NCBI GenBank assembly: GCA_945876385.1
Contig: CAMCNU010000008.1
Span: forward strand, 1-64,000
Source: an uncultured Veillonellaceae bacterium
Lineage (GTDB): Bacteria > Bacillota > Negativicutes > Veillonellales > Negativicoccaceae
Length of the DNA stretch: 64,000 bases
Direction of reading: 5' to 3'
The position numbers and the translations under genes are program-made. This document shows positions 27,912-34,878 of the stretch, one piece after another (within the stretch, counting starts at the first letter, position 1; each line of letters starts with the position of its first letter). The notes below the pieces were generated by a model, which was given only the letters and a program-made list of their open reading frames with translations, was not told the DNA's origin and made no database searches.

Positions 27912-30736
<2,825 letters not shown>

Positions 30737-32726: not shown

Positions 32727-33734
32727 TCACAGTCCCTGTTTACCGATATAGGTAATCAAATCCACGACGCGATTGGAATAGCCCCATTCATTATCGTACC
32801 AGGACACGACCTTGACCATGGTGCCGTCGATGACCTGCGTCAACAGCGAATCCACCGTCGAGCTGGCCGGCGATCCGTTATAGTCGGACGATACCAACGG
32901 TTTGTCGGAATAGTCCATGATACCTTTCAAGGCGCCTTCCGATGCCTCTTTGAGCGCCTGATTGACTTCCTCCACTGTCGTTTCCTTTTCCACGTCGCAC
33001 GTCAAATCCGTAATCGACACATTCGGCGTCGGTACCCGCATCGCAAATCCGTTCAGCTTGCCTTTCAATTCCGGCAATACGAGCGCAATCGCTTTCGCGG
33101 CGCCGGTGCTGGTCGGGATAATATTTTCCGCCGCGGCACGGGCTCTGCGCAAGTCGCTGTGCGGCAAATCCAAAATCCGTTGGTCGTTCGTATACGAATG
33201 TACCGTCGTCATCAACCCGCGACGAATACCGAATTTCTCATGCAATACCTTGGTAAAGGGCGCCAAGCAGTTCGTCGTGCAGGACGCATTGGAAATCACA
33301 TGATGTTTCGCCGGGTCGTATTCCCTTTCGTTGACCCCCATGACGATTGTAATATCTTCCTCCTTGGCCGGCGCGGAAATAATGACTTTTTTCACCGTAC
33401 CGCCCAAATGTTTTTTCGCGTCGTTTCCGTTGGTAAAACGTCCCGTCGCTTCCACCACCACATCGACACCCGCATCGCTCCAGGCAATCTGGGCCGGATC
33501 GAATTCTTTGTATACATAAATCATCTTGCCGTTGACATAGAGATGACCGTCTTTGACTTGAATATCCGCATCCAAATGTCCGTGCACCGAGTCATATTCG
33601 AGCAAATGCGCCAGCGCTTGAATATCGCCCGGGTCATTAATCGCGACGATTTCCACTGCATCATTTGCCATGGCCGCGCGCAATACATTCCGTCCGATTC
33701 GTCCGAATCCGTTAATTCCGACTTTTGTTGCCAT
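32727..33734 (-). CDS. gap: Glyceraldehyde-3-phosphate dehydrogenase, type I
   Basis: 335 residues. NAD-binding KVGINGFGRIGRNVLRA, catalytic Cys in SNASCTTNCLAPF, His in TVHSYTNDQRILDLPH, and C-terminal WYDNEWGYSNRVVDL. NAD is favoured because the residue after the second strand is Asp (VAINDPGD). Directly behind cggR (11-base gap), AGGAGGAA before the ATG. CggR-controlled in Firmicutes. Confidence 0.96.
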   Translation of the reverse strand: MATKVGINGFGRIGRNVLRAAMANDAVEIVAINDPGDIQALAHLLEYDSVHGHLDADIQVKDGHLYVNGKMIYVYKEFDPAQIAWSDAGVDVVVEATGRFTNGNDAKKHLGGTVKKVIISAPAKEEDITIVMGVNEREYDPAKHHVISNASCTTNCLAPFTKVLHEKFGIRRGLMTTVHSYTNDQRILDLPHSDLRRARAAAENIIPTSTGAAKAIALVLPELKGKLNGFAMRVPTPNVSITDLTCDVEKETTVEEVNQALKEASEGALKGIMDYSDKPLVSSDYNGSPASSTVDSLLTQVIDGTMVKVVSWYDNEWGYSNRVVDLITYIGKQGL

Positions 33735-33745
33735 AATTTTTCCTC

Positions 33746-34777
33746 CTAGTCTTGCTCTGTGTCGCCGTTAGACAGCAGAGCCGTCAACTCACTTGCCGCC
33801 CCTTCATCCGTCACCAAATGACCGCGGATACCCGCCCGCACCATCGCCAATATCGCCGCGGCTTTGTGCGAGCCGCCCGCCACGATGATGACATCGGGAA
33901 TATGCGGCAACATGTCCATCGTCACACCGACATTCGGTCGATGAAACACAATTTGTCCGGCGGCATCGGCATAGTAGCCCAGCGCCTCGCCGACCGCTCG
34001 CCGCGACCGGATTTGCCGGCGCTCCGCCTCGGGGATTTGGCGCAATTCCGCCATCCGCAAGGCTTCACCGATACCGATGACCAGCATATCGGCGCGGGCA
34101 ATCAGTGTTTCCACTTCATCGAGCGACGCATCTTCCTGCCTGAGCAGCTCGATAATCCGACTCGAAAATCCGTCCGGCACATGCAGCATCCGATACTCGC
34201 CGCCGGTCTTGCGGGCGACTTTGGCCGCGACCGCATTGGCCTGCGTTTCCAATTGTTCACCGAAACCGCCGCGCGCCGGCACCGCCATAATCGGCACCTG
34301 TGTATCCGGCAACGCATCCGCCAGCAGCGCCAGCGTCGTCCCGCCGCTGACCGCGACCACCGCCCCGGGCGAAAGCCGACCGGCAACCAACAGCGCCCCC
34401 GCCTGCGCCAACCGCGCTTGCGTCGGTCGATGGTCGGTCGAATCGCCGCGCACTACCGTGACCGCAGGCAAGTGCAAGCGCTGCGCCAGTGTCCGTTCGT
34501 AAAATCCCGTCGAATGGCGTGTCCGAAACAACTCGGCCGCCGCGACCAGTACGCCTTCCCCCTGTGTCGTGACGGCAATCCCGCCGGGCGACACCGCGAC
34601 CAGATCCGCCGCTTCCAATTGCGCCACTTCACCGCGCACCGTCCGCTCGGACCACCGAAGAGCATCCGCCAACGCCCGCCGACCGATAGGACCGGTCAGT
34701 GCGATCTCCGCCAAGAGACGATAGCGAGTTTCCGCTTCCGTCAGCAATTCCGGTACTAATGATTCCAGTACGTTGAT
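33746..34777 (-). CDS. cggR: Central glycolytic genes regulator, SorC/DeoR family
   Basis: 343 residues if it starts at ATC 34777. A winged helix-turn-helix (GRRALADALRWSERTVRGEVAQLEAADLV) precedes a SorC sugar-phosphate-binding domain with AVSGGTTLALLA, VPARGGFGEQ and the end IIVAGGSHKAAAILA. In B. subtilis CggR represses gap-pgk-tpi-pgm-eno until fructose-1,6-bisphosphate binds. The frame upstream of the TTG at 34747 reads NVLESLVPELLTEAETRYRLL, which matches CggR N-termini, and AGGAG lies 8-9 bases before ATC; there is a stop just upstream and no ATG or GTG. A TTG start would cut the N-terminal helix. Confidence 0.88.
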   Translation of the reverse strand: MNVLESLVPELLTEAETRYRLLAEIALTGPIGRRALADALRWSERTVRGEVAQLEAADLVAVSPGGIAVTTQGEGVLVAAAELFRTRHSTGFYERTLAQRLHLPAVTVVRGDSTDHRPTQARLAQAGALLVAGRLSPGAVVAVSGGTTLALLADALPDTQVPIMAVPARGGFGEQLETQANAVAAKVARKTGGEYRMLHVPDGFSSRIIELLRQEDASLDEVETLIARADMLVIGIGEALRMAELRQIPEAERRQIRSRRAVGEALGYYADAAGQIVFHRPNVGVTMDMLPHIPDVIIVAGGSHKAAAILAMVRAGIRGHLVTDEGAASELTALLSNGDTEQD

Positions 34778-34792
34778 GGCGCTCTCTCCTTT

Positions 34793-34828
34793 CTATCCCG
34801 CGGGGCAAAAAGTGTCCACCCGACGCTA
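34793..34828 (-). promoter_or_regulatory. Possible CggR operator
   Basis: Between the transcription start and the ribosome-binding site the minus strand reads GTCGGGTGGACAC, an A/T tract, and CCCCGCGGGATAG. CGGG..GACA with a second CGGGA about 20 bases on resembles the B. subtilis CggR direct repeats (CGGGAC..TGTC), at the same place relative to the promoter. Match is partial. Confidence 0.4.
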
Positions 34829-34849: not shown

Positions 34850-34878
34850 ATTGTAGCAAATCCCCTTGTCGAATACAA
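34850..34878 (-). promoter_or_regulatory. Promoter of cggR-gap-pgk-tpiA-gpmI-eno
   Basis: Minus strand -35 TTGTAT (34873-34878), 17-base spacer ending in TGC, -10 TACAAT (34850-34855). Confidence 0.65.

Follow-up and report, generated by a model that had tools for sequence, protein, structure and literature searches.

A candidate ATC start codon for cggR, the central glycolytic genes regulator, in a Negativicoccus-like bacterium

We find that cggR, which encodes the central glycolytic genes regulator, is best read as starting at an ATC codon in a Negativicoccus-like member of the Veillonellales. This reading is drawn from the sequence and gains support from relatives, in which ACG (in two members of the same family) and ATT (in an unrelated genome) are found. 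We put the probability that the gene truly begins at this AUC codon, where initiation is predicted, at roughly three in four. Weak starts are already known in a few other regulators, and the ATC of cggR is a new example of them, not a new kind. The source genome (1.5 Mb, 24 contigs, 99.98% complete) is accompanied in its family by three further genomes, referred to below as G001, G002 (N. massiliensis LT700188) and G003. The stretch analysed here (64,000 nucleotides, hereafter the window) carries cggR and gapA as follows:

33746..34777, minus strand: cggR (central glycolytic genes regulator), 343 codons and a TAG stop when read from ATC; it lies before gapA and encodes the domains CggR_N and Sugar-bind
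32727..33734, minus strand: gapA, 11 nt past the cggR stop, with its own Shine-Dalgarno sequence (SD; AGGAGG) and ATG

The identity of the gene, as proposed in a preliminary description of this DNA, is upheld by its domains and by its place before gapA. In Pfam, the product matches CggR_N (PF21715) with an E value of 4.5e-18 and 65 bits (cutoff 30), and Sugar-bind (PF04198) with an E value of 6.4e-53 and 180 bits (cutoff 27), such that both the DNA-binding domain and the effector domain of a SorC/DeoR-type CggR are present. The gene is single copy in the source genome and stands first in the order, with gapA-pgk-tpiA-pgm-eno directly downstream, a putative operon judging from gene order and spacing.

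The start region, all of it on the minus strand, contains the following features:

34793..34795, minus strand: in-frame TAG stop (codon -6), abutting the SD on its upstream side and barring any start further upstream in frame
34784..34792, minus strand: SD AAAGGAGAG, containing AAAGGAG and followed by AGCGCC and then ATC
34775..34777, minus strand: proposed start ATC, the only start-capable codon at the proper distance from the SD
34766..34768, minus strand: CTG (codon +3), in frame, 17 nt 3' of GGAG; rejected alternative
34745..34747, minus strand: TTG (codon +10), the first canonical in-frame start; rejected, as it has no SD and loses the conserved LVPE

Read directly, the minus strand runs TAG (34795), AAAGGAGAGAGCGCC, ATC (34777), and then AAC GTA CTG GAA TCA TTA GTA CCG GAA TTG (34747) CTG, which agrees with the preliminary description of the ATC and of an in-frame stop just upstream. 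That description also held that neither ATG nor GTG occurs in frame before TTG 34747, and direct reading bears this out: between TAG 34795 and TTG 34747 (the latter 30 nt from ATC 34777 and in frame with it) there is no in-frame ATG, GTG or TTG, and a single CTG, at 34768. Both sequence features looked for at a near-cognate AUH start are found at cggR, namely a good SD normally spaced from the ATC, and no in-frame ATG, GTG or TTG at SD distance. The SD helix for ATC (AAGGAG, aligned spacing 6) has a predicted energy of -6.2 kcal/mol. As controls we used the five genes of the operon (gapA, pgk, tpiA, pgm and eno), a crude automatic survey of genes across the window being too noisy. The helix of eno (AAGGAG, -6.2 kcal/mol, spacing 6) equals that of ATC, and those of gapA, pgk, tpiA and pgm range from -7.0 to -11.6 kcal/mol at spacings of 4 to 7. 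For CTG 34768 the value is -0.4 kcal/mol, and TTG 34747 has no helix at all. The residues just past the ATC are, furthermore, conserved: the proline 8 codons past it is a P in 104 of 110 cggR loci, the residue that follows is D or E in 105 of the 110, and the seven nearest relatives all share L6 V7 P8 E9. Given an SD at normal spacing and conserved residues that a TTG start discards, the sequence as it stands offers no start nearly as good as ATC. The predicted N-terminal peptides are MNVLESLVPELLTEAETR for an ATC start, MESLVPELLTEAETR for a CTG start and MLTEAETR for a TTG start. A start upstream in another frame, combined with a frameshift, was considered and rejected, as no ATG, GTG or TTG occurs in any frame from the SD to TTG 34747.

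The same layout (operator-like block, SD, about 8 nt, start codon) is common to the window and to G001, G002 and G003. In G001 cggR reads GGAGGTGAATGCG GTG, and in G002 and G003 it reads GCGAGGTGATTGCG ACG. The preliminary description had named an ATG in all close relatives as refuting its reading, and the start position is without ATG in G001, G002 and G003 alike (GTG once, ACG twice). In G002 and G003 (loci L004, L005 and L034) the first canonical codon met upstream in frame, a GTG, lies within the SD and itself has no SD; it is the ACG that stands at start distance, although ACG should initiate poorly and may be unused. A short out-of-frame reading frame beginning with TTG is also seen in these two genomes, ending at a TGA that overlaps the in-frame GTG (GTGA). 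Coupled re-initiation through this overlap would be an alternative to an ACG start.

Across Negativicutes more widely, an automatic scan of 120 cggR loci, in which the start was called by the best SD, gave 84 ATG, 21 GTG and 12 TTG starts, with ATG thus in the majority. In only three of the 120 do the 30 codons that precede the conserved P-E/D-L motif hold no ATG, GTG or TTG, so that the lack of a canonical start in the window is more than chance. One of these (G150, locus L240) was rejected, its ATG being hidden behind an apparent A-run frameshift; an in-frame TAG follows the A-run soon after that ATG, and the site looks like a frameshift or an assembly error. G199, considered as a further non-canonical case, was likewise rejected, having an in-frame ATG four codons upstream. 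The clear case is G159 (L233/L254), a one-contig Negativicutes genome of another family, in which cggR reads GGGACAAA ATT GAA with no other usable canonical start in frame, and in which 7 of 8 congeners have ATG at the position of the ATT. An ACG lies four codons upstream of the ATT in this genome. Besides the window, G159 is the one unambiguous case in about 119 loci, which is no significant excess over Listeria, where 6 of 2265 conserved genes have fixed non-canonical starts (PMC13068326). Consequently, the argument from recurrence is suggestive only.

Within the order, AUH initiation is seen in infC, the gene for IF3, for which all 23 loci whose start was read have a strong SD followed by ATT or ATA; it is thus plausible that such initiation works in these ribosomes. 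The infC of the source genome itself (L032, G000:C6 near 29320-29529, minus strand) has ATT behind GGGAGGTGAATGAT. Like cggR, infC combines an AUH start (AUU or AUA) with an SD at similar spacing, but IF3 inspects start codons, and infC therefore autoregulates translationally, whereas CggR is without such activity. The link to infC-type autoregulation drawn in the preliminary description is consequently an analogy: the product of cggR is a DNA-binding regulator and not IF3, it is no translation factor with a role in the selection of start codons, and its autoregulation is expected to proceed through an operator-like sequence in the leader. Translational autoregulation of cggR in the manner of infC is not supported.

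Given a family without ATG at this place, the ATT of G159 and the ATT or ATA of infC throughout the order, a real start appears likelier than either a base error or a strain mutation, the base itself being unconfirmed. The first of these, the plain alternative named in the preliminary description, is a sequencing or assembly error, such that the codon would really be ATG and cggR an ordinary gene. We consider it unlikely, though it is the best placed of the rival explanations: one base change would yield an ATG with a good SD, the source genome is a 24-contig draft, and scans of genome contigs, and of viral contigs with any base allowed at the third position of the codon, gave no conspecific or congeneric copy of cggR (the genus is represented by this one genome). 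Against it, the codon lies midway along a contig of 66 kb. If drafts carry errors at a rate between 1e-6 and 1e-5, as we assume, far less than one start codon would be struck per genome, while genuine non-canonical starts ordinarily number a handful in each, as the Listeria count cited above (6/2265, PMC13068326) indicates. The lack of ATG in the other three family genomes likewise counts against an error. Less probable still is a recent reduction-of-function mutation from ATG to ATC in the isolate, derepressing glycolysis and not fixed in the species. A single genome of the species is known here, and in the Listeria regulator gene rsbW changes from ATG to ATA or ATT arise readily under selection (PMC13068326); however, family members carry non-ATG starts at the same place, and cggR keeps an unbroken reading frame of 343 codons whose product scores strongly against its protein families. 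Finally, it is very improbable that translation begins downstream at TTG 34747 or CTG 34768 with the ATC unused, since, although TTG is as a codon a much better start than ATC and would be chosen by gene callers (the list of open reading frames gives cggR as TTG 34747 to 33746, in a frame identical to that of ATC 34777), neither codon has a useful SD, a TTG start would delete the conserved L-V-P-E, and the strong SD at 34792-34784 would be left without a function.

The closest parallel to an ATC start in cggR comes from ccpN in Staphylococcus aureus and Bacillus subtilis. Its product represses gluconeogenesis, and its non-canonical start, AUA, is conserved and yields about 10% of the expression obtained with AUG, rising to as much as 30% in rich medium (PMC13009471). 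In S. aureus, the AUA of ccpN and the AUU of cvfC1 each give about 10% of AUG (PMC13009471). Both ccpN and cggR encode transcriptional repressors of central carbon metabolism, and in both a good SD precedes an AUH codon, near-cognate and, in cggR, a predicted start; they differ in that cggR encodes a SorC-type repressor of glycolysis and has AUC and an ordinary rather than an extended SD. A natural ATC start has been experimentally confirmed in Listeria for a different gene, rnhC, and rsbW mutants with ATG changed to ATA or ATT were found there under acid selection (PMC13068326). The change of start codon in rsbW lowers the dose of a regulator, as is proposed for cggR, although the rsbW changes are acid-selected mutations. 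If the ATC start is real, cggR would be the second gene, after ccpN, in which a repressor of central carbon metabolism is given a bad start codon, suggesting that start-codon weakness may be a general way of setting repressor-to-enzyme ratios within an operon. Moreover, AUH starts are rare and usually overlooked by gene callers, and CggR would in that event be annotated ten residues too short.

In the mechanism we favour, the good SD would set the AUC in the P site of the ribosome, to be read there by initiator fMet-tRNA despite a mismatch at the third position, CggR then beginning (f)Met-Asn-Val-Leu-Glu-Ser. Synthesis of the protein would be inefficient, amounting to a fraction of that from AUG, and the weak start would thereby probably keep the repressor low relative to GapA and the other enzymes encoded on the same transcript. 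Autoregulation of CggR would be transcriptional, through the operator-like sequence of the leader. Two features lie upstream of the start region:

34797..34818, minus strand: CggR-operator-like sequence TGGACACTTTTTGCCCCGCGGG, aligned with TGGACAAAAAATGTCCCGCGGG of relatives; putative function
34850..34878, minus strand: possible promoter TTGTAT-17-TACAAT, found by eye, its -10 aligning with TACAAT/TATAAT of relatives

In B. subtilis the operator of cggR lies in the leader, and CggR is low relative to GapA; it is on the former that we base the putative operator function of TGGACACTTTTTGCCCCGCGGG. By alignment, a block of the type GGAC...GTCC..GGG is conserved in the leaders of relatives, and the copy in the window is a degenerate one. 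The possible promoter is absent from the listing of the consensus scan.

The stoichiometry of the operon in B. subtilis, where the same gene occupies the same place upstream of gapA, depends on RNase Y cleavage within cggR together with a stabilising hairpin (PMC11780869). A gap of 11 nt in the window, and an overlap of the two genes in relatives, leave no room for such an intergenic hairpin. A more far-reaching possibility is that the cggR of Negativicutes has repeatedly been driven to near-cognate starts (ATC, ACG and ATT, in three lineages), with start-codon weakness, instead of RNA processing, holding the repressor at a low level next to GapA, and with the control of glycolysis made sensitive to IF3 or to growth state, for which the medium dependence of ccpN would be the model. 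We regard this as doubtful, and other Negativicutes commonly combine a short gap with an ATG start, such that the swap of RNA processing for a weak start is offered only as a conjecture. For the same reason a rule tying a short cggR-gapA gap to a weak start was rejected, although the family itself fits one. The overlap with the gapA start is 23 nt in each of the loci L003, L004, L005 and L006, and many Bacilli have 60-170 nt between the two genes.
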